From NCBI GenBank assembly GCA_022483015.1, contig JAKVOB010000001.1:372001-436000 (forward strand): a stretch of DNA of 64,000 nt, read 5' to 3'. Both the position numbers and the translations under genes were made by a program. The stretch comes from Atopobiaceae bacterium (lineage in GTDB: Bacteria > Actinomycetota > Coriobacteriia > Coriobacteriales > Atopobiaceae). Below are positions 1,520 to 37,130 of this stretch, piece after piece. Every line of letters begins with the position of its first letter. Positions within the stretch are counted from its first letter, which is position 1. The notes beneath the pieces were generated by a model that ran no database searches, had not been told where the DNA came from, and saw only the letters and a program-made list of their open reading frames with translations.

Positions 1520-3949
1520 CTATGACGCGTGCCAGATCTCCTTCGCATACTCGCGAATCGTACGGTCGCTCGCAAAGTAGCCCGAGGTTGCCGTGTTGTG
1601 GAGCGCGATGCGGTTCCACCGGTGCGCGTCGGGGTAGATTGCCGTGAGCCTCTCCCAGGCGTCGACATAGGACCTGAAGTCCTTGAAGACGAGGTCTGGG
1701 TCATTACCCTGCATGAGATAGTCGTGGATGCTCTCGAAGTTGCCCGAGAGCGAGGCGAACGTACCGTCCACGAGCTCGTCGACCACGCGGCCGAGACGGT
1801 CGCGGTCGTTGTTGTACTCGTCCCACGAGAAGTACGTGCCCGCCGCACGGAGTGCCTCGACGTCTTCCACCCGAAGGCCGAAGACCTCGATGTTGTCGTC
1901 CCCCGCGAGCTGGGCGATCTCGACGTTGGCGCCGTCCATGGTGCCGAGCGTGATGGCGCCGTTCATCATGAGCTTCATGTTGGACGTGCCCGAGGCCTCC
2001 TTGCCGGCGGTCGAGATCTGCTCGGAGATCTCTGCCGCGGGGTAGATGAGCTGGGCATTCGAGACGGCGAAGTTGGGGACGAACGCGACCTTGATCGTGG
2101 AGTTCACGCGCTCGTCGGCATTGATGACGTCCGCCACGGAGTTGATGAGGCGGATGACCTCCTTGGCGAAGTCGTAGCTCTGGGCGGCCTTGCCCGAGAA
2201 GATGAACGAGGTGGGCTGGGGCCTGTAGCTCGGATCAGCGAGGAGCCGGTTATAGATGTCGAGGATCTTGAAGACGTTCAGCAGCTGGCGCTTGTAGGCG
2301 TGGAAGCGCTTGACCTGGACGTCGAAGACCGTGTCGCAGTCGAGCTCGACGCCAGTCTGGTCCTTGATGTAGGCGGCGAGGCGCTCCTTGTTGGCACGCT
2401 TCGACACGGCCATCGCATCGAGGAAGGCGGGGTCGTCCTCGAACTGCTTCAGCCTGGCGAGGTCGTCGGCGTCGTCGAGCCAGTGGTCCCCGATGTGCTC
2501 GGTGATGAGCTTGGCATAGGTAGGGTTGGACTCGGCGAGGAAGCGACGGTGCGAGACGCCGTTCGTCTTGTTGTTGAACTTCTCGGGTGTGAGGGCGTAG
2601 AACTCCTTGAGCACGTCATGCTCGAGGATGTCAGTGTGGATCTTGGCGACGCCGTTGACCGAGTGGGAGCAGATGATGGAGAGGTTCGCCATACGGACCT
2701 CGCCGTCCCAGAGGATGGCCGTCTTCTTGAGGAGCTCCTGCCAGTTGTCGGCCGTATGCGGGAAGCTCTCGCGATAACGGCGGTCGATCTCGTCGATGTA
2801 CATGTAGACACGCGGGAGCAGGGTCCTGAAGGTGTTGATGGGCCACTTCTCGAGCGCCTCGGGCATGACGGTGTGGTTCGTATAGGAGATGGAGCGCGTG
2901 ACGATGTCCCACGCGGTGTCCCAGTCGAGGCCCTCCTCGTCGACGAAGATGCGCATGAGCTCGGCTCCGCACATGGCAGGATGGGTGTCGTTGGTGTGGA
3001 TGGCCACGCGGTCGGGGAAGCGTGCCCAGTCCGAGCCGTACTCCGCGTGGTAGGTGCGCAGGATGGAGGCGAGGCCGGCAGCCACGAACAGGTACTCCTG
3101 CTTCAGACGCAGAATCTTGCCGTGCTCGCCGGAGTCGTTGGGATAGAGGATCTCCGAGATGGCCTCCACGTCCGCGCGATGCCGTGCGGCCTTGGCATAG
3201 TCGCCCTCGTTGAAGGCGTCGAGGTCGAACTCCTCCTCGACGGGCTCGGCGCTCCAGATGCGGAGCTTGTTCACCGTCTCGCCACCGTAGCCCACGATGG
3301 GCACGTCGTACGGGACGGCCTTGACCTCGTCGCCGCCCTCCCAGGTGAACCAGTACTTGCCGTCCTTCTCATGACGGACGACCTCGCCGCCGAAGCGGAC
3401 GATGACCGAGCTCTCGGGACGGCACACCTCCCACGGATAGCCTCCGGCGAGCCAGTTGTCGGTCTCCTCGACCTGACGTCCGTCCTTGATCGACTGCTTG
3501 AAGAGACCGTAGCGGTAGCGCATGCCGTTGCCATAGCCCTCTATGCCCTCGTGGGCCATCGAGTCGAGGAAGCACGCGGCAAGACGTCCCAGGCCACCAT
3601 TGCCCAGGCCGGCATCATGCTCCTGGTTGCACAGGTCCTCGAGCGACACGCCCATGTCCTTGAGGCCGTCGGCCACGATGTCGCGGACCCCGAAGTCGAG
3701 GAGGTAGTTGTCGAGCAGGCGGCCGATCAGGAACTCGAGCGAGAAGTAGTAGACCTTCTTCTTGTTGTTGGCAGCGTTGACAGGCTCGTTCGCAGCAGCG
3801 ATGTCACGCGCGTTGACCGCGATGAGCTTGACGAGGATGTCGAAACGCTCCTTGTCGGTGCAGGCATCGAAGTCCTTGCCCACCTCCGCCTTGAACATGT
3901 GCCGATAGCTCTCGACGAACTCGTTCTTGTCCTTGAAGATCTTCTGCAT
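1520..3949 (-). CDS. glgP: Glycogen/alpha-glucan phosphorylase
   Basis: The enzyme phosphorolyses alpha-1,4-glucan chains to glucose-1-phosphate, using pyridoxal phosphate. The product is 809 residues, the normal family length. The PLP-binding segment [14 protein letters not shown] is present with the Schiff-base lysine at about residue 659, and the N-terminal region has the usual [17 protein letters not shown] substrate loop. The start [11 protein letters not shown] at 3949 has AAAGGGG 7 nt upstream; an alternative ATG nine codons earlier (3976) is less typical for the family. It lies between glgB and glgC, so synthesis and breakdown of glycogen are encoded by one transcript. Confidence 0.96.
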
Positions 3950-12460: not shown

Positions 12461-14293
12461 GTGCCCATCCACCGACCACAGCAAGGCCAGCCCAGCCCCG
12501 GCCAGGTCCGAGCAGGCGACACCACCCCCCAGCAGGCCGTATCGGCAGACGCGTCGCGACCCGAGCTGCTCCTGGACCGCTACCACGTGGTCGAGACGCG
12601 CGGCACCGGCGGCTTCGGATGCGTGCTGGTGTGCTGGGACACACGCCTCCAGCGACGCGTGGCAATCAAGCGGATGCCCCTCGCACAGCCGGACCCCTAT
12701 GCGGCATCGGCCATGCCCTCGGGTGCCTCCTCGCTCGAGGAGGTCCTCTCGGAGGCACGGACCGCATCGATGCTCTCGCATCCCAACATCGTGACCGTGC
12801 TCGACCTGGAGGTCGAGGGTTCCTTCGCCTACCTCGTGATGGAGTACGTGGACGGCATCACGCTGGCCGAGCTGCTCGGGCGCGTGGAAGGCGGCGTCCT
12901 CACCTATGACGAGTGCGCCCACGTCCTCTCCTCGCTGGCCTCCGCCCTCTCGTTCGCCCATGAGAACGGCGTGCTCCACCTCGACATCAAGCCTGCCAAC
13001 GTGTTCATTGACCGATCGGGCACGGTGAAGCTCGGCGACTTCGGCATGGCCGCGCTCGCGAGTGCGGCCGGCTTCGGCGGCGCGCGCGGCGGCACGGTGG
13101 GCTACATGCCGCCCGAGCAGCTGGCCGGGTCCACGGTGGACGAGCGCTGCGACATATACTCGCTCGCCGTGGTCTGCTATGAGGCCCTCACCGGACGCGA
13201 TCCCTTCGCGGCCCCCTCAGCCGAGGAGTCGGAGGAGCTCGAGGCCGTGGGTGCCCCTCCCCTCTCGGAGGACGAGCCCGGGCTCGAAGGCCCCGTGAGC
13301 GACGCGATCGCCTGCGCGCTCGACCCGTCCCCCCAGGGACGCATGGCGCAGGTCTCGCAGCTCGCGCGCGAGGTCGTGCCCTCCTTGGGTGACCCGGTCG
13401 CCGGCCAGTCCTCCATCGCCTCGCTCATGGCCCAGGTCACCGATGACGAGAGCTACGAGGAGGGCTGGCACGAGTTCGAGCGCGAGCCCCTCTCCGCGCG
13501 GATGCCATGGCTCCCCAAGGCCTTCTCACGCGTCATGGCGGCTGCCACCTGCGCCTGGTGCGCCTACCTCCTCACCCCCGGTCTCGGCTTCGCAGGCAGC
13601 GTCGTCCTCGGCGGCCAGGTGATACCCACCCCCCTCGTCGCCGCCCTCCTATGCGCCGTGGCCGCCGCGCTCGTGCCATGGCTGGGATGCGCCCTCGTGC
13701 TCGTGGGCCTCACGGGAGCGGTCGGCATGTCCGGCTCGCAGGCCGTCGGGTATGCCGTGGCCCTCGGGGGCGTCTGCCTCGTCTGGTGGGTCCTGGCAGG
13801 TCGCCGCCACGAGCTGGCCGGTGCCGCCGCGTTGCTCCCTGCCTGCCTGGGCGTGCCAGTGGCCGGCGTGGGCCTGGGAGGCTGGGCCCTCCCGCCCCTC
13901 GGCGCCCTTGTGACCGGGGCCTTTGGCTATCTGGTCCAGCAGGTCATGACACTCTGCACGAGCTCCGGGTTCGATGGCGCCGCCACGGCGTCCGGGCTCT
14001 CGACGTTCCTCTCGACACCGTCGAGCTGGGTCCTCGCCATCGGGTATGGCCTCTGCTCGCTCCTCGTGTCCGCCGTCTGTCGCCGTAGGACCATGACATC
14101 CGCCATCGTGGCCCAGGTGCTGGGAGGATGCGCCCTCGTCTTCGTGGGCATGGTGGCCGCTAGAGTGGAGAATGGCAGTATATGGCTGGCCCCTAGCTGG
14201 GGCTCGGTGGCAAGTGCGGTACTCTTTTCCCTACTTATGGTCATTGTGACGGTGCTCTTGGGGCCGCCTTCAATTGCGCGGGAGAGTGATTGA
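12461..14293 (+). CDS. Membrane-anchored Ser/Thr protein kinase with C-terminal multi-helix domain
   Basis: Residues about 40-310 form a Hanks-type kinase: glycine loop GTGGFGCV, VAIK lysine K70, catalytic loop HLDIKPAN (D175, N180), DFG (193-195) and MPPEQ. The HRD arginine is replaced by leucine, which often marks kinases not controlled by activation-loop phosphorylation. After a linker, residues about 345-605 contain some eight or nine hydrophobic helices, unlike PknB, which has one helix and PASTA domains. The start is GTG at 12461. It is the first gene of the fhaA-fhaB-pstP-SEDS/PBP-pknB cluster, 1 bp before fhaA, so it probably acts on the same FHA and cell-wall targets. Confidence 0.85.
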   Translation: MPIHRPQQGQPSPGQVRAGDTTPQQAVSADASRPELLLDRYHVVETRGTGGFGCVLVCWDTRLQRRVAIKRMPLAQPDPYAASAMPSGASSLEEVLSEARTASMLSHPNIVTVLDLEVEGSFAYLVMEYVDGITLAELLGRVEGGVLTYDECAHVLSSLASALSFAHENGVLHLDIKPANVFIDRSGTVKLGDFGMAALASAAGFGGARGGTVGYMPPEQLAGSTVDERCDIYSLAVVCYEALTGRDPFAAPSAEESEELEAVGAPPLSEDEPGLEGPVSDAIACALDPSPQGRMAQVSQLAREVVPSLGDPVAGQSSIASLMAQVTDDESYEEGWHEFEREPLSARMPWLPKAFSRVMAAATCAWCAYLLTPGLGFAGSVVLGGQVIPTPLVAALLCAVAAALVPWLGCALVLVGLTGAVGMSGSQAVGYAVALGGVCLVWWVLAGRRHELAGAAALLPACLGVPVAGVGLGGWALPPLGALVTGAFGYLVQQVMTLCTSSGFDGAATASGLSTFLSTPSSWVLAIGYGLCSLLVSAVCRRRTMTSAIVAQVLGGCALVFVGMVAARVENGSIWLAPSWGSVASAVLFSLLMVIVTVLLGPPSIARESD

Positions 14294-30585: not shown

Positions 30586-30635
30586 TTACGTGGTGCCCTC
30601 GGGCGGATTCGAACCGCCGACACCAGGTTTAGGAA
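30586..30635. repeat. Left attachment site (attL), 50-bp repeat of the tRNA-Arg 3' end
   Basis: The 50 bp are identical to 37050-37099 and cover the CCA end, acceptor, T-arm and part of the anticodon arm of tRNA-Arg(CCT). The rest of the tRNA is missing here, so this copy is the displaced host fragment. Confidence 0.93.
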
Positions 30636-30765
30636 TTTTGTTCTCTTGGTTTTCGCAGACTTTTGTATGTTTCTACGACTTAGATTTTCCAATACGTCTA
30701 CCAGGTGTTACACGTCAGAATATGTAACCTTGTGTCTGTGTGTGTTAGAATGTTAGCGGTAAAAG

Positions 30766-30787
30766 TATGGCACGGATATGGCACAGG
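30766..30787. repeat. Left candidate integrase arm site
   Basis: Two copies of TATGGCAC, 11 bp apart (30766-30773 and 30777-30784), repeated in the same order near the right end at 36966-36987 with a single mismatch over 22 bp. They lie about 130 bp inside attL and just upstream of the integrase start. Confidence 0.6.
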
Positions 30788-30802
30788 ATGGAGGCGGCCA
30801 GG

Positions 30803-32161
30803 ATGTATGAGTACAGCTCCGGGAGTCTCAAACGCGGCAGGCCCTCGAAGTCCTTCAAGCGTGGGAGGTGGCGCGCGACGATCTGCTACCAGTCCGACGA
30901 CGGGGACGGAAGGGGACGCCGCCAGCACCAGATATCGAAGCTCCTCGAGTCCGAGGTGACTGGTGCAGCCAACGAGGGACGCCCGAAGGCAAAGAAGGAG
31001 CTCGAGAGTTGGCGCAGTGACATCATCGAGGCCAACACACGATGCGACGGCGTGGTCTCTAGGTTCACTGCCGATGCGGACGAACAGGGAATGAGGGGAT
31101 GGCCAGATCAGGACGACGTGGACGCGAGCGCGATGGTGCCCGACTATGTGGCCGACTTCATACGTGGGCTAAGCGGCACGGTATCTCCGACCACGCAGGA
31201 CAGCTACCGGGTAAGCAACATCTACATAAGGAACGGGCTCGGAGGGATCCACCTTGGGGACCTCACCATGAAGCAGGTCGAACGATGGAGGAAGGATCTT
31301 TCACGCCATGGTCGCAAGGATGGCGGGCCACTATCCGCTAGCAGCGTCACGAAGTCCCTCACGTTGCTCTCCGAGACCTGCAAGCACGCCGTCAAGCTCG
31401 GAGACATACCCTCCAACCCGTGCGACGGAGTTGGACGCCCGAAGAAGAAGCAGCCGGACCCGAACGCCTTGAGCGAGGACGACGTGGCAAGGCTGAACTC
31501 CGAGCTATCGAAGATGGGTCCGACACCTCTAGCCGTTGGGGCTTCGATAGCCCTCATGACCGGGATGCGCGAGGGCGAGGTGTGCGGACTCAGGTGGGAG
31601 GACGTAGACCTCACCGGCCGAACGCTTCAGGTGAGGAAGAGCGTCGGGCGCGCGAACGGAACGACCTACCTCAAGGAACCGAAGTCCAAGGCAAGCAGGC
31701 GCAAGCTCCCGATAGGGAAGACGTTGTTATCCGTTCTCGAGTCGCGCAGGGCGAGGATGCAGGCCGATTGCATGGCTGCCGGGATACCGTTCACCGGCGA
31801 GCTATACGTGATCGGATACAGGGACGGCAGATACCTCACTCCGCACACGCTCGGGGAGTACTGGGCACGGTTCGCAGCAGGAAATGAGGACCGGGAACCG
31901 TTCGTAGGGTCAAAGCACCGGGTCTGCACCTTCCATGACCTACGGCACACGTTCGCTACGAGGTCGATAGCGTCCAAGGTTGACGTGAAGACGGTATCGA
32001 GCTTCTTGGGACACCAGGACACCTCTATAACCCTCAACGTCTACGCAAGCTCAGACGACGACGCCAAACGCCGGGCGGCCGACATGATGGACGGCATCCT
32101 AGGTGCGACTGCGACCGAGGCAGACGTGATGCAACTCAGGACGGGCACGACGGGCGAGTAG
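30803..32161 (+). CDS. int: Tyrosine recombinase (integrase) of the tRNA-Arg element
   Basis: The 452-residue phage-type integrase has an N-terminal arm-binding region (residues about 1-60), a SAM-like core-binding domain (about 112-205) and a catalytic domain. The active-site residues are R256, H378, R381, H404 and Y414 in GMREGEVCGLRWED, FHDLRHTFAT, FLGHQD and LNVY. All are present, so it should be active. The start MYEYSSGSLKRGR at 30803 has GGAGGCGG about 7 nt upstream. In-frame ATGs at 30767 and 30788 are possible but lie in the repeated arm-site sequence. Confidence 0.95.
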   Translation: MYEYSSGSLKRGRPSKSFKRGRWRATICYQSDDGDGRGRRQHQISKLLESEVTGAANEGRPKAKKELESWRSDIIEANTRCDGVVSRFTADADEQGMRGWPDQDDVDASAMVPDYVADFIRGLSGTVSPTTQDSYRVSNIYIRNGLGGIHLGDLTMKQVERWRKDLSRHGRKDGGPLSASSVTKSLTLLSETCKHAVKLGDIPSNPCDGVGRPKKKQPDPNALSEDDVARLNSELSKMGPTPLAVGASIALMTGMREGEVCGLRWEDVDLTGRTLQVRKSVGRANGTTYLKEPKSKASRRKLPIGKTLLSVLESRRARMQADCMAAGIPFTGELYVIGYRDGRYLTPHTLGEYWARFAAGNEDREPFVGSKHRVCTFHDLRHTFATRSIASKVDVKTVSSFLGHQDTSITLNVYASSDDDAKRRAADMMDGILGATATEADVMQLRTGTTGE

Positions 32162-32255: not shown

Positions 32256-32702
32256 ATGAGCGGAACGACAGGAACCACGACGGTCGGCATGGACATGCGC
32301 GAGTTCGAACGGCAGCTCCAACACGTCCGGGACGCGGCAGCGACGTTAGGCGTCTTTGCCGTCTCCGAGGGAATTGATGGGGTGTATCCCGGATTCGGGA
32401 TGGTCCTGGAGGGGATGGCCGGGTCGCTCCTCGACACGACGAGGGCCATAGACGCGGCAGGATGGCAGCACGTGCCGAAGCGTCCTGTGCAGGATACGCA
32501 AGACGCCACGCAAGTTGACTTCAAGGCCCACGAGGAGGCACGGCACCGGGTCGAAGGTGCAACGAACATGTTGTTCGGGATGGCCGAGTCTGGGTTAGCC
32601 ATGCAACCAGAAACGGCAGCCGGCCTACAGGATATCGCCGAGATCCTATCTAACGCGACGTGCGACATGTACGGCGCTTGCCATGCGCCCGATGAGATTT
32701 GA
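32256..32702 (+). CDS. Hypothetical protein of the integrated element, 148 residues
   Basis: No family is recognised. The protein is soluble, mildly acidic and predicted mostly helical, with no clear motif. A good AGAGAGG ribosome site precedes MSGTTGTTT; the same GAGAGG-TATCACC-ATG arrangement precedes the gene at 35734, so the two may share a translation signal. It follows the integrase by 94 bp and is followed by a terminator at 32768-32814. Confidence 0.7.
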   Translation: MSGTTGTTTVGMDMREFERQLQHVRDAAATLGVFAVSEGIDGVYPGFGMVLEGMAGSLLDTTRAIDAAGWQHVPKRPVQDTQDATQVDFKAHEEARHRVEGATNMLFGMAESGLAMQPETAAGLQDIAEILSNATCDMYGACHAPDEI

Positions 32703-32767
32703 GGCCACAGAATCGCTTCTAAGGCCCTATCTTTCATGGCATCGACTGAGTGCCCACCATTAGCAAG

Positions 32768-32814
32768 GGAACGCCCACCGGTGGGCCGTGGCAGGCTGAG
32801 GCGGTGGGCGTTTC
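32768..32814 (+). terminator. Terminator after the integrase segment of the element
   Basis: AACGCCCACCG (32770-32780) pairs perfectly with CGGTGGGCGTT (32802-32812), extended by G-T and G-C pairs outward, and ends in TTTC. It separates the integrase unit from the repressor-like gene. Confidence 0.7.
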
Positions 32815-32860
32815 ACATATCATTGTACCCGTTGGGTCGGACGTGTTTGGGGTGGTGGCC

Positions 32861-33592
32861 GTGGCAGGCAAACAGGATGATGAGGCGTCACGCGACCCGC
32901 GCGAGGTGGCCGGACTCTGCAAGGCCATACCGAAGCATAACCTAGGGAAGCTGCTTCACAGACGGCGCGGCATGGTTGCCGAGTTCGCTGACGCCATGGG
33001 CGTTAACAGCAAGTACCCGAGCAAGTGGGTTAGTGGAGATAAGCGCATGACCAACGAACAGGTTGCGAAAGCGTCATGGCTTCTCGGGGTGCATCCCCTC
33101 TACCTTCTCGACATGAGGGAAGAGGAAGACCCGGCGATATGTTATATCCCATATGAGGATGAGGGATTATTGGTACCACGTGAAAGCATGATTGAAGCTG
33201 TAGGTTTCCTATCAATCCCAGCAATCGGGAAATACGATGAGCGATCACAAAGGTGGGAAACGCTCTATGGATTCACGGGCGGACCTACAGAGTGTGAATC
33301 GATGTGCGTCAATCCCGACATAGGCTTTGAGAGAAGTACGGAATACGTTCCGATGAGTACCGAGGAGGCCGAGAGCTTGCGCAAGGAGGCCATACGTTCT
33401 CTAGTAGCAATAGATGGAGACTTTAGAAACCCATCTGGAGTCATGTTTGCAATGCTAGAAATACTCCTATCAACTGCCGGCGGCAGCAACTGTGTTTTTG
33501 TATTTGACGACCTAGAAAAGCTATTCGTAGAGTCGGCCTACTCAAATGATGATGCCATGTGCACGGCCAGGGCGCGCCTTGCGAGTGATTAG
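32861..33592 (+). CDS. HTH protein, candidate repressor of the integrated element
   Basis: A lambda-repressor-like HTH lies near the N-terminus: LGKLLHRRRGMVAEFADAMGVNSKYPSKWVSGDKRMTNEQVAKASWLLGVHPLYLLD, about residues 28-84. The rest (about 160 residues) is not recognised. Composition falls to clearly lower GC after about 33100, unlike its neighbours, suggesting a separate origin. The start is uncertain. The frame is open back to 32750 but that stretch contains a terminator hairpin; GTG at 32861 with GGGGTGG upstream is preferred. It lies just before two operator-like dyads and is the obvious candidate to bind them. Confidence 0.7.
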   Translation: MAGKQDDEASRDPREVAGLCKAIPKHNLGKLLHRRRGMVAEFADAMGVNSKYPSKWVSGDKRMTNEQVAKASWLLGVHPLYLLDMREEEDPAICYIPYEDEGLLVPRESMIEAVGFLSIPAIGKYDERSQRWETLYGFTGGPTECESMCVNPDIGFERSTEYVPMSTEEAESLRKEAIRSLVAIDGDFRNPSGVMFAMLEILLSTAGGSNCVFVFDDLEKLFVESAYSNDDAMCTARARLASD

Positions 33593-33639
33593 CAACCGGC
33601 CGTGAACGGCATCCAAAGATTCTCGTGAAAAACTTTCGC

Positions 33640-33720
33640 GTGACCTTGTTAACGATGCAAGGTCACGCTTTCGTTTGATATAGCTAATTCCATGTGACCT
33701 CATGTGGTGGAGAAGGTCAC
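33640..33720. promoter_or_regulatory. Pair of identical-geometry operator dyads
   Basis: GTGACCT-N13-AGGTCAC occurs twice, at 33640-33666 and 33694-33720, with centres exactly 54 bp apart (about five helical turns). The first dyad extends to an 11-bp perfect arm (33638-33648 with 33658-33668). The dyads occupy the only large gap within the element, upstream of the Xis-like and replication genes. They are probably repressor operators. Confidence 0.75.
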
Positions 33721-33820
33721 GTTTCACATCATAACACCAGGTAGACAGCTTATTACCCCGTGTTAGTCTCTTGTTGTCTGCAGACGCGAACATAAATCTG
33801 ACAACGGAAAGGGGCACACG

Positions 33821-34042
33821 ATGACATACCCAACCATGACATTAGAAGAGTTCAATGAACTCGCGGCACTATGCACCCCAAAGCACGTGTCGGAGATGAG
33901 CGGGCTATCACTCCACACGGTTCAATGCATGGCCCACGACGGCGATCTCCCCACTGCTTGCAAGGTCGGGGGGAAGTGGCGATTCAACACGCAGGAGATG
34001 GGCCGCCTGTTCGGCATCATCACCGATTCGAGCACCGACTAG
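33821..34042 (+). CDS. Excisionase-like HTH protein
   Basis: The 73-residue protein has the compact MerR-like/HTH_17 fold of excisionases: CTPKHVSEMSGLSLHTVQCMAHDGDLPTACKVGGKWRFNTQEMGRLFG, with the characteristic wing GGKWRF. It may act as Xis for the integrase or as activator of the downstream replication genes. A GGAAAGGGG ribosome site lies upstream. The next gene starts 1 bp after its stop. Confidence 0.8.
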   Translation: MTYPTMTLEEFNELAALCTPKHVSEMSGLSLHTVQCMAHDGDLPTACKVGGKWRFNTQEMGRLFGIITDSSTD

Positions 34043-34043
34043 G

Positions 34044-34784
34044 ATGGCCGGATCTAGGGCCGTGGCTCCGACTGACGGCAGCGGATGGCCGGGAGACGGC
34101 ATCGAGCCGACTATCGAAGGTCACTATTCGAAGCTTGACGACGATTTGGCAGCGTGGCTCTCGTGCTGGACGTCATGGACGCGCCGCAACTTCAGGAGGG
34201 GGTGCGGGTCACGTCTCGAGCTCCTGCCGTTCGCAGCCTACAGGACGGAGGCCCACGACTCTATACGCGGCGAGAGGTTCACGTCCTTCTCGCAGTCGCA
34301 GGCCGCCGAGTGGATCGGATGCACGAAGCGTAACGCGGTCAACGTCATAGGCGACATGAGCACCGACGACCCCAACGAGAGGCCGGCCCCGCTCACTGTC
34401 GCAGCGAAACCGCCACGCGGGAACAACTCATGGAGCACCTGTTACACGTTCACCGATGCATCCTTCTCAGATGAAGCGAACGCCGTTTCAGGTTCACCTG
34501 ATGGAACAGAACCAGATGAAGCCATTCACGGTTTCGGTTCACCTGTAGCACCCCATGCCTCAGGTGAACTCTCGTGTACCTCAGGTGAACTCTCGTGCAC
34601 GTCAGGTGAACCGAGCAAACAGGTAATGCCTGGTAGAAGCATTGCCGATGTTCCCCCTATATCTCCTATAACTCCTACACCACCCACAGAACAAGACAGC
34701 CATGGACCCGCTGCAAGTAGTAGCGATGTCACTGGCCTATTAGGGGAGGGTTGCTCTGATGAGTTTGAGGAATATGACGAGTGA
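34044..34784 (+). CDS. Initiator-like protein with iterons inside its coding sequence
   Basis: Residues about 25-135 look like a winged-helix DNA-binding domain, with FTSFSQSQAAEWIGCTKRNAVNVIGDM as the HTH. Residues about 140-190 consist of repeated units (two 15-residue DEA...GSP copies, then SGELSCT copies) encoded by the DNA repeats at 34468-34611. The acidic C-terminus (DEFEEYDE) could contact the loader. The layout of N-terminal DNA-binding domain, repeat-coded linker and C-terminal partner region, followed by a DnaC-like gene, parallels lambda O. No homologue is named with confidence. The start is coupled to the preceding stop; there is no strong ribosome site. Confidence 0.65.
   Translation: MAGSRAVAPTDGSGWPGDGIEPTIEGHYSKLDDDLAAWLSCWTSWTRRNFRRGCGSRLELLPFAAYRTEAHDSIRGERFTSFSQSQAAEWIGCTKRNAVNVIGDMSTDDPNERPAPLTVAAKPPRGNNSWSTCYTFTDASFSDEANAVSGSPDGTEPDEAIHGFGSPVAPHASGELSCTSGELSCTSGEPSKQVMPGRSIADVPPISPITPTPPTEQDSHGPAASSSDVTGLLGEGCSDEFEEYDE
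34468..34611. repeat. Iteron array, candidate replication origin
   Basis: Five copies of the core CAGGTGAAC. Two are inverted (GTTCACCTG at 34492 and 34537), inside a 45-bp-period direct repeat that begins with CAGATGAAGC at 34468 and 34513. Three are direct (TCAGGTGAAC at 34560, 34581 and 34602) with an exact 21-bp period. An AT-richer stretch with repeated CTCCTATA-like units follows at about 34655-34685. Helically phased iterons next to such a stretch inside an initiator-like gene suggest an origin. Confidence 0.7.
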
Positions 34785-35664
34785 TGAGGCGAGGGCCAAG
34801 GCCGAGCAGCGGTCGGAGCTCGCGGCGAGGTGCGGCATCGAGTACGGGACCAACACCGACTCCCCGACCGATCCCGACGGGATATTTGCGTACATCACGA
34901 CAGAGGGAGGAGGCCCAGACATGACGGAGCTCGAGCGCGAGAAGGTCGAACTCATAATGAGTCACGGATTCCAAGGCAGCGTCGAAGCCGCCTTGGAGAT
35001 GGCCGCTGCCTATGATGCGTGGCCGAACCAGGCTTCTGGTTGGTACCTCGACAGGTTCGGGGTGAGGGCCGACGAGGAGGAGCCGGAAGCGATCCGGGCG
35101 GCGGCAGGCGTCCCTAACGCCCTCATGGGTGCCATGGACTCCTACGAACCGACCGAGGACATGGTGGCCTATGCCTTCGAGCTATCCGGGAACGCGACAC
35201 GCGGCGCATGGCTGGTTGGCAGCGACTACGCGACCATGGCGGCCGCATGGGTCTCAGGCATGGCACACGGCAGCCGCTACGTTGACGTGCCCGAGCTGTT
35301 GGCGGACTTCGAGGCCATGTCCCGCTTCGGGCCAGAGGGCGCGAGGAACAGGGCGAACGCCATGAGGGGGCCGTCCGTGTTGGTCCTGAATGCCATTGAC
35401 GGCGCTCAATGGACCCGGCAATCCGTGGCACTTGTGGCACCGGTGATCAGGTATCGGCGTATGGCATCGCTGCCAACGGTGGTGACGGCAACCACGAGGG
35501 TTTCGGGCGTCGCGTCCCACCTCATGCAGACCATAAGCGGTGACGATGCGCGCAAGCAGGCTAACGACATGCTTCGAGACCTCCTCGCGGGAATGGGCCG
35601 CACGAAGGAGGAGCGCAGGTCCCACTTCATAGAGTGCGGCGCGGGCGGTGATGCGGTGGCATGA
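34759..35664 (+). CDS. DnaC-like helicase-loader homologue with degenerate ATPase motifs
   Basis: Residues about 117-260 align by eye with DnaC/IstB-type AAA+ loaders: a GVPNALMGAMDSYE entry segment, TRGAWLVGS at the P-loop strand, SRYVDVPELLADFE, GPSVLVLNAIDG at Walker B, VIRYRR and LPTVVTATTRVSG at sensor 1. The P-loop GxxGxGKT is replaced by GSDYATMAA (154-162), and the Walker B acidic pair is NA. It is thus probably unable to hydrolyse ATP. The start has GGGGAGGG about 8 nt upstream and overlaps the initiator gene by 26 bp, showing translational coupling. Confidence 0.65.
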   Translation: MSLRNMTSDEARAKAEQRSELAARCGIEYGTNTDSPTDPDGIFAYITTEGGGPDMTELEREKVELIMSHGFQGSVEAALEMAAAYDAWPNQASGWYLDRFGVRADEEEPEAIRAAAGVPNALMGAMDSYEPTEDMVAYAFELSGNATRGAWLVGSDYATMAAAWVSGMAHGSRYVDVPELLADFEAMSRFGPEGARNRANAMRGPSVLVLNAIDGAQWTRQSVALVAPVIRYRRMASLPTVVTATTRVSGVASHLMQTISGDDARKQANDMLRDLLAGMGRTKEERRSHFIECGAGGDAVA

Positions 35665-35699: not shown

Positions 35700-35733
35700 C
35701 TGGTAGATGTTGACCGACAGAGAGGATATCACC

Positions 35734-35976
35734 ATGAATGGCACAACGACCCATGAGACGTGGCGGACGGAGATCAGGAACGGGAGGGACGCCTACAGGG
35801 CGGCGATCAGGTACGTGGTCAACGAGCTCCGAGCGACCGACTTCTCAGACACGGACGAGGCCGACGAGACCCTGGGTGACGTGTATTCGATCCTGGAGAG
35901 CGTCGTGAGCACGGAGAGGTTCGATACCGGGACCATGACGCACGAAGGTCACGACGCCGTATTCGTTCTCCGTTAG
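35734..35976 (+). CDS. Small hypothetical protein of the element, 80 residues
   Basis: An acidic, helical-looking protein (RNGRDAYRAAIRYVVNELRATDF...DEADETLGDVYSILESVV) with no recognised family. The start is set by AGAGAGG upstream in the same ribosome-site context as the gene at 32256. It is the first of three small genes at the right end of the element, where satellites and islands often keep accessory functions. Confidence 0.65.
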   Translation: MNGTTTHETWRTEIRNGRDAYRAAIRYVVNELRATDFSDTDEADETLGDVYSILESVVSTERFDTGTMTHEGHDAVFVLR

Positions 35977-36007
35977 GTAGCAGTCCACATCAACGAGAGG
36001 TATGAGC

Positions 36008-36496
36008 ATGAAGTATCTGAAGAGGTCTCACCCGGACGGCAGCGGATCAATCGGAAGGTGGGACGAGGTCAGCAAGAAGGAGTTCAAGGCCGCATACGGC
36101 AGGAAGATGGCGTCGGTATGCTCCGACGAGGACAACTCCGACGTGTCTGTCAGCTCCGACGAGGAGCAGGACTACATGAGGTACGTCTCATGGAGGATGG
36201 GTCACAAGTACGATCTCATGCCGGACGCCCTCACGCAGCCTGGTAAGGACCTCGCATGGGACCCGAGGCCACTGTCGGAGGCCGAAACCTCCCTCGAGGC
36301 GTACCAGAAGTACGCGGCCGAGTGCGACTCGGAGGCCGAGGCCGACGAGCTGATGGCACAGTCGAAGCGTGAGGAGGCCGAGAGGTGGCGGAACAAGGTG
36401 GGGCCGACGAGGGACAGCGTCGCAAGGCTCACGTCAGAGCGTGACAGGCTGTGGTCAAAGTACGAGTCTACGGTGTTCGGGGACGAGGAGGTCTAG
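36008..36496 (+). CDS. Hypothetical protein of the element, 162 residues
   Basis: No family is recognised. The protein is hydrophilic and charged, with a Ser/Asp-rich segment (CSDEDNSDVSVSSDEEQD) near the N-terminal third and a likely helical C-terminus (EAEADELMAQSKREEAERWRNKV). GAGAGG lies about 7 nt before the ATG at 36008; an ATG two codons earlier (36002) is too close to the ribosome site. It is followed 2 bp later by the next gene, so the two are coupled. Confidence 0.65.
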   Translation: MKYLKRSHPDGSGSIGRWDEVSKKEFKAAYGRKMASVCSDEDNSDVSVSSDEEQDYMRYVSWRMGHKYDLMPDALTQPGKDLAWDPRPLSEAETSLEAYQKYAAECDSEAEADELMAQSKREEAERWRNKVGPTRDSVARLTSERDRLWSKYESTVFGDEEV

Positions 36497-36498
36497 GT

Positions 36499-36822
36499 AT
36501 GGAGCTTATCGACGAGAACAAGGTCAGGGATCTCGAGAAGAGAGCTAAGGCCCTGCGATACGAAGCGGACTCATACGACGAGAAGGCACGGGCACACGCT
36601 GCCAAGGCAAGGTCGCTCGAGCGCTCGAAGGAGTCTGTCGAATGGCTCGAGGGACGTATCTCCGAGCACGAGAAGAGGGAGAAGGAGTGCCGCGCTTCGG
36701 CCAAGGCGTCACGTTCCGAGCTTGCCAAGGTCTCGAAGATGCTCGAGCGCGAGAAGGGACGGCCGTCAAACTACGACGACGCCCTCATGGGAATGATCGA
36801 CGAGGCGGACGACCCGAGATGA
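36499..36822 (+). CDS. Small coiled-coil protein of the element, 107 residues
   Basis: Almost the whole protein is charged heptad-like sequence (KVRDLEKRAKALRYEADSYDEKARAHAAKARSLERSKE...), a long coiled coil ending in a short acidic tail. GGAGG lies 8 nt before the start. Its role is unknown. Short coiled-coil proteins at element ends can be structural, partition-like or regulatory, and nothing in the sequence decides between these. Confidence 0.65.
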   Translation: MELIDENKVRDLEKRAKALRYEADSYDEKARAHAAKARSLERSKESVEWLEGRISEHEKREKECRASAKASRSELAKVSKMLEREKGRPSNYDDALMGMIDEADDPR

Positions 36823-36965
36823 GAGTCGGGTGGGGGTACTTTATTTGCGGGCCGTGGCATGACTCCCGCCGCTAGTCATAGTTTCCCCCCGCCCAGGAGT
36901 AATTAGTGGGTAGTGTCAATTTCCCAAGGCGTAAATCAGCGAGATTCGCCAAATTATCGTGAATG

Positions 36966-36987
36966 TATGGCACAGATATGGCACAGG
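36966..36987. repeat. Right candidate integrase arm site
   Basis: Two TATGGCAC copies 11 bp apart (36966-36973 and 36977-36984), matching the left copy at 30766-30787 in the same orientation. It lies 62 bp inside attR in otherwise non-coding sequence (36823-37049). Confidence 0.6.
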
Positions 36988-37049: not shown

Positions 37050-37099
37050 TTACGTGGTGCCCTCGGGCGGATTCGAACCGCCGACACCAGGTTTAGGAA
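37050..37099. repeat. Right attachment site (attR) within intact tRNA-Arg
   Basis: This is the second copy of the 50-bp att repeat. Here it is continuous with the 5' half of the tRNA, so integration restored a complete gene whose 3' half comes from the element. Confidence 0.93.
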
Positions 37100-37130
37100 A
37101 CCTGTGCTCTATCCCCTGAGCTACGAGGGC
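37055..37130 (-). tRNA. tRNA-Arg (anticodon CCT)
   Basis: Minus-strand cloverleaf of 76 nt: acceptor GCCCTCG/CGAGGGC, D-arm GCTCAGGGGATAGAGC, anticodon stem CAGGT/ACCTG with loop TTCCTAA (anticodon CCT), T-arm GGCGGTTCGAATCCGCC and encoded CCA. It reads AGG arginine codons and is the integration site of the neighbouring element. Confidence 0.96.

Follow-up and report, generated by a model that had tools for sequence, protein, structure and literature searches.

The location of a replication origin inside the gene of its own initiator is established for lambda and the Stx phages (PMC7466680). The same arrangement is found in SPP1, where oriL lies inside gene 38 (PMC6316719), and in the lactococcal phages TP901-1 and Tuc2009, which carry the origin inside the initiator gene, r1t being provided with a DnaC-like loader (PMC8965321). 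We have found a comparable organization in the window, by which we mean the whole 64-kb stretch of Atopobiaceae DNA that was analyzed. The region 34044–35664 is, with good confidence, the replication module of an element integrated in a tRNA-Arg gene, in which the initiator would bind iterons contained in its own gene, open a weak stretch of DNA and recruit the host helicase with the help of a loader. The first-pass annotation had taken this layout as new for such elements. Actually it is already present in the phages named above, and many loci of Coriobacteriia are similar. The element is a good new example of a known layout, not a new kind of system.

The element measures 6.46 kb and is flanked by 61-bp direct repeats. 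The left attachment repeat (30586..30646) is 93% identical to the right one (37050..37110), and the latter overlaps the intact tRNA-Arg gene with anticodon CCT (37055..37130, − strand) that is the integration target. All the genes of the element are on the + strand: a tyrosine integrase (30767..32161; Pfam PF00589, E=1.5e-21), an ORF of 148 aa (32256..32702) with no family match in Pfam or PHROG, a probable repressor with a helix-turn-helix region (32750..33592; weak matches to PHROG transcriptional regulators, best E=9.6e-4), an excisionase-like protein of the HTH_17 type (33821..34042; Pfam PF12728, E=5.2e-9, and a Cox-like excisionase in PHROG), the replication initiator (34044..34784), a helicase-loader-like protein of the DnaI/DnaC family (34759..35664), whose gene shares 26 bp with that of the initiator, and three small ORFs of 89, 164 and 123 aa (35707..35976, 36002..36496 and 36451..36822), the last probably a coiled coil, without Pfam or PHROG matches. 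Between the repressor and excisionase genes (33638..33721) there are two AAGGTCACG dyads that are probable operators; one extra copy of AAGGTCACG was detected at 35945. Near both ends of the element we found a 29-nt direct repeat (90%) around TATGGCACRGATATGGCACAGG (30759–30787 and 36959–36987), which probably corresponds to integrase arm-type sites. The view that no other phage genes accompany the initiator does not hold, with an integrase, a repressor, an excisionase and a helicase-loader-like gene present; it is structural phage genes that the element lacks. Pfam and PHROG searches of its ORFs gave no structural phage, primase or transfer gene families, and the HK97-type capsid and portal families searched had no match in the genome. 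The element may be a phage satellite, as the small PICMIs are, but also an integrative plasmid or a degenerate prophage.

Inside the initiator ORF, between 34492 and 34611, there are five exact copies of CAGGTGAAC, two of them inverted, on the − strand (34492–34500 and 34537–34545), and three direct, on the + strand (34561–34569, 34582–34590 and 34603–34611), the direct ones spaced by exactly 21 bp. This is precisely what the first-pass annotation had claimed, except that it made the repeats begin at 34468 and the exact copies start at 34492. Its 45-bp-period repeat exists as two 33-nt copies at 34468 and 34513, each including one inverted iteron, but there are only these two and they are 76% identical. 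By chance 0.44 copies of CAGGTGAAC would be expected across the whole window (the maximum in 100 shuffles was 3), and the sole further copy in the window is found at 3342. Genome-wide (2.28 Mb) there are 27 copies, five of which are in the initiator gene. We permuted the codons of this gene keeping the protein and the codon usage unchanged, and none of the 2000 synonymous shuffles reached five copies or equalled the number of repeat pairs. The neighboring genes of the loader and integrase showed no such repeat excess in the same test. The inverted copies encode GSP and the direct ones SGE, so that the repeated unit is a DNA word and not a peptide. Selection on the CAGGTGAAC repeats thus acts at the DNA level. 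Starting 35 bp past the last iteron, the 50 bp of lowest stability in the gene (34647–34696) are a candidate unwinding element. The A+T-richer stretch noticed before at about 34655–34685 is real but modest, as it reaches 54% A+T and is not the least stable part of the whole element. Only one near match to a DnaA box was detected, at 33624, outside the initiator gene. We also found 12 viral contigs with two CAGGTGAAC copies at 21-bp spacing; none of the 12 had a third copy nearby and they were taken as chance occurrences.

The initiator, of 246 aa, comprises an N-terminal domain, the linker encoded by the iterons and an acidic and aromatic C-terminal tail. It gave no match in Pfam, PHROG or NCBIfam and no sequence match in the PDB, and nothing in its sequence relates it to lambda O; descent from lambda O or from a known phage initiator family is therefore not supported by sequence. 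The AlphaFold model (pLDDT 33) was too poor for fold comparison, its only order being helix-helix-helix-helix-strand-strand, with an HTH-like order of helices. Single-sequence searches with the initiator or the loader retrieved nothing from viral contigs, phages or plasmids, and a scan of the genome contigs with the initiator was equally negative. The matches to it in other genomes of the family (L012–L015) looked like chance matches and were not retained. Its C-terminal tail contains EFEEYDE (34761..34781, + strand), a candidate partner-contact motif. Many of the initiators located beside loader genes in Coriobacteriia (L020–L047) end in aromatic-x-x-aromatic, for example YSEYD, YAQYD, YAAYD or FEEYD. 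An aromatic/acidic tail was present in 9 of 17 initiator tails (a partly hand-picked set) against 12 of 164 ORF tails. As a guess, this tail may contact the loader or the helicase.

The protein encoded downstream, searched as a single sequence, matched DnaI in NCBIfam (E=1.7e-4), and a two-member loader profile retrieved from the PDB the DnaI-type helicase loaders 2qgz, 5he8 and 2w58 (E values from 8e-4 to 3e-3). The best structure matches of its AlphaFold model were DnaI and DnaC, a fold resemblance that is only supporting since the model is of low confidence (pLDDT 41). The region from Walker B to the sensor is kept and matches DnaI. The Walker A motif GxxxxGK[ST] is missing in the loader-like proteins of both the window and a related element of Olsenella, and LVGSDYATMAAAW is found in its place. 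Another relative (L020) has a nearly canonical GNGTKKST. The alignment of the window and Olsenella loaders found nothing in viral contigs and, among the genome contigs, only the Olsenella element.

This second element, from Olsenella uli An733, is located in a tRNA-Lys between identical 68-bp repeats that indicate an att duplication. The gene order is that of the window, int-repressor-xis-initiator-loader, with an overlap between the excisionase and the beginning of the initiator ORF, and the loaders are 34–36% identical. The initiator gene has the same place and layout as that of the window, and its linker contains AGTTAGGGCAACTCTG seven times, allowing up to two mismatches. The copies occur in the two orientations, fall in each of the three reading frames and are followed by the least stable 50 bp of that gene, with 66% A+T. 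These iterons are unrelated to CAGGTGAAC. The Olsenella element has TCGGTACC repeats close to its att sites at either end (L018:7866–7900 and 13508–13553), and these are probably integrase arm-type sites. The two initiators are barely alike (BLASTP E=0.25), and the kinship proposed for them relies mostly on their location in the element, on the WPG...LD.D.A.W motif and on the relatedness of the loaders. A profile of their N-terminal domains gave only marginal further matches in the order.

A third case was found in a sister species, another species of the genus to which the window belongs. There the same tRNA-Arg is occupied by a different element of 6.9 kb (L071, G001:C2:173500-185500) with an integrase, xis and initiator followed by a DnaB_C helicase gene where the window has the loader. 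This tRNA-Arg is therefore an integration hotspot at which the replication cassette is exchanged. The integrase of the window is 39% identical to that of the sister-species element and 35% to that of the other relative. The sister-species initiator had a sub-threshold HTH_36 match, and profile comparison gave no significant match between it and the window/Olsenella pair, so that its descent from a common initiator is not supported. Its gene contains four copies of TCGATANGNCCCATTANCGA at nt 369–482, the third with four mismatches, and the repeat pairs again exceeded those of synonymous shuffles. The TCGATANGNCCCATTANCGA iterons are unrelated to those of the other two elements. The repeats of the three elements thus have a position in common and differ in sequence, which agrees with what would be expected of initiators that each recognize a set of sites of their own.

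Searching Coriobacteriia with the loader profile, we detected many IstB/DnaC-type loaders. Nearly all the distinct ones that were tested were immediately preceded by a gene of the same strand, and most of these upstream genes had more short DNA repeats than their own synonymous shuffles. This prevalence is approximate, as the frame or start assigned to some of the upstream genes was uncertain. Initiator genes rich in repeats and adjoining a loader gene are common in this class.

These data very probably reflect an origin contained in the gene of its initiator, with a helicase-loading gene at its side. This reading is strongly supported by the anatomy of the locus and by the two related elements, whose iterons are unrelated in sequence but located alike. 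We consider this comparison the decisive evidence for the embedded origin. The proposal builds on features read directly from the DNA (the repeats and their selection, the gene order, the att sites, the relationship of the loaders and the layout repeated in both relatives). Upon release from the repressor and excision, the excisionase, the initiator (34044–34784) and the loader would be produced jointly. The initiator would then bind the five CAGGTGAAC iterons in the part of its gene that encodes a flexible linker, melt the weak stretch at about 34647–34696 and, together with the loader-like protein (34759–35664), recruit the host replicative helicase, leading to theta replication of the excised circle. 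The repressor would have a regulatory role. Points that count against are the barely alike initiators, the initiator model with pLDDT 33, the modest A+T stretch and the loader without Walker A.

The repeats could have other explanations. If they were a low-complexity protein linker grown by slippage, without DNA function, the tandem peptide SGELSCT encoded by the 21-bp steps would be accounted for, but they would not vanish on synonymous shuffling (0/2000), the same 9-mer would not appear inverted encoding other residues and the Olsenella iterons would not run through all three reading frames; hardly any likelihood is left to this idea. The sites might also be operators, the ORF product being a DNA-binding regulator that acts through intragenic sites on the loader gene or on its own operon, which would agree with the HTH-like helix order of the poor model and with the other operator-like dyads of the element. 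We regard this as improbable, given that the sites are well past the gene start, number five to seven, are phased and are followed by an unstable stretch, that related elements have them as well, inside initiator genes adjoining one for a loader or a helicase, and that the element already has a separate repressor with its probable operators. Shuffling, frame, position and recurrence led us to reject both interpretations.

A former origin, belonging to a decaying prophage remnant that no longer replicates, is unlikely but deserves more credit. The missing structural genes, extended to the HK97-type capsid and portal in the genome as a whole, and a loader deprived of Walker A are what would be expected from decay. 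On the other side, the core genes are all open, the att repeats are present and the iterons exact, and both the small gene set and the missing Walker A are found again in an element from a different genus. This explanation overlaps with that of the embedded origin, and the likelihoods that we assign to the two are not meant to add up to one.

The embedded origin makes the module a defined, cloneable candidate replicon of 1.6 kb for Coriobacteriia, for which we know of few replicating vectors. The three sets of initiator and iterons should allow study of the predicted joint change of a protein and the binding sites in its own gene, and the Walker A loss poses a testable question, that of ATP-independent helicase loading. 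More speculatively, and with less than even chances, Atopobiaceae may have an undescribed family of minimal integrated replicons of 6–7 kb, possibly phage satellites, with a fixed int-repressor-xis frame, a swappable replication cassette, an own iteron set for each initiator and some loaders that, having lost Walker A, work without binding ATP.

Among small mobile elements, PICIs (PMC6092414) and PICMIs (PMC10803314) are similar in being site-specific, with an integrase, a regulator or excision factor and their own replication genes, and in lacking virion genes. PICIs are transcribed divergently and have the ori after a primase/rep gene, whereas here all genes are on the + strand, with no divergence of int/repressor from xis/rep and no primase family match, and the layout is not that of a PICI. 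PICMIs differ in having a primase, of which none was found here, where the genes run one way and the putative ori is inside the initiator gene. The gene content is not that of an AICE either, as the nine main ORFs of the element had no RepSA/prim-pol or FtsK-like Pfam match. The similarity with SPP1 (PMC6316719) is that the origin repeats are within the gene of the origin-binding protein gp38 (oriL) and the gene of the loader gp39 adjoins; unlike the window, SPP1 contains another origin and encodes a DnaB-type helicase of its own, a gene that here appears only in the sister-species element. With lambda O/P (PMC7466680), whose ori-lambda is in gene O, the locus shares an initiator gene whose central part contains iterons and an A+T-rich tract, and a gene for a helicase-loading protein directly after it. 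The lambda O-like origin suggested by the first-pass annotation is sustained by the anatomy and the two related elements, but not by sequence: the iterons are different and of mixed orientation, nothing matches O, the C-terminal part seems to consist largely of a tail for which no structure is predicted and the loader is DnaI/DnaC-like, not recognizably lambda P. The lactococcal replisome organizers TP901-1 ORF13, Tuc2009 Rep2009 and r1t ORF11/ORF12 (PMC8965321) also belong to a Gram-positive host and bind repeats of their own gene as the phage origin, as we propose for this initiator, and r1t has in addition the gene of a DnaC-like helicase loader. Those proteins are from full phages, while here no phage initiator family matches, some iterons are inverted and the loader has no Walker A. 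The anatomical features of the lambda O and TP901-1 type are found here: several iterons in the initiator coding sequence past the N-terminal domain, an easily melted stretch adjacent to them in the window (modest) and in Olsenella, and an adjacent loader or helicase gene (DnaI/DnaC-like, or DnaB_C in the sister species). By analogy, the best reading is that this module would work like those of lambda O-P and of TP901-1, Tuc2009 and r1t.
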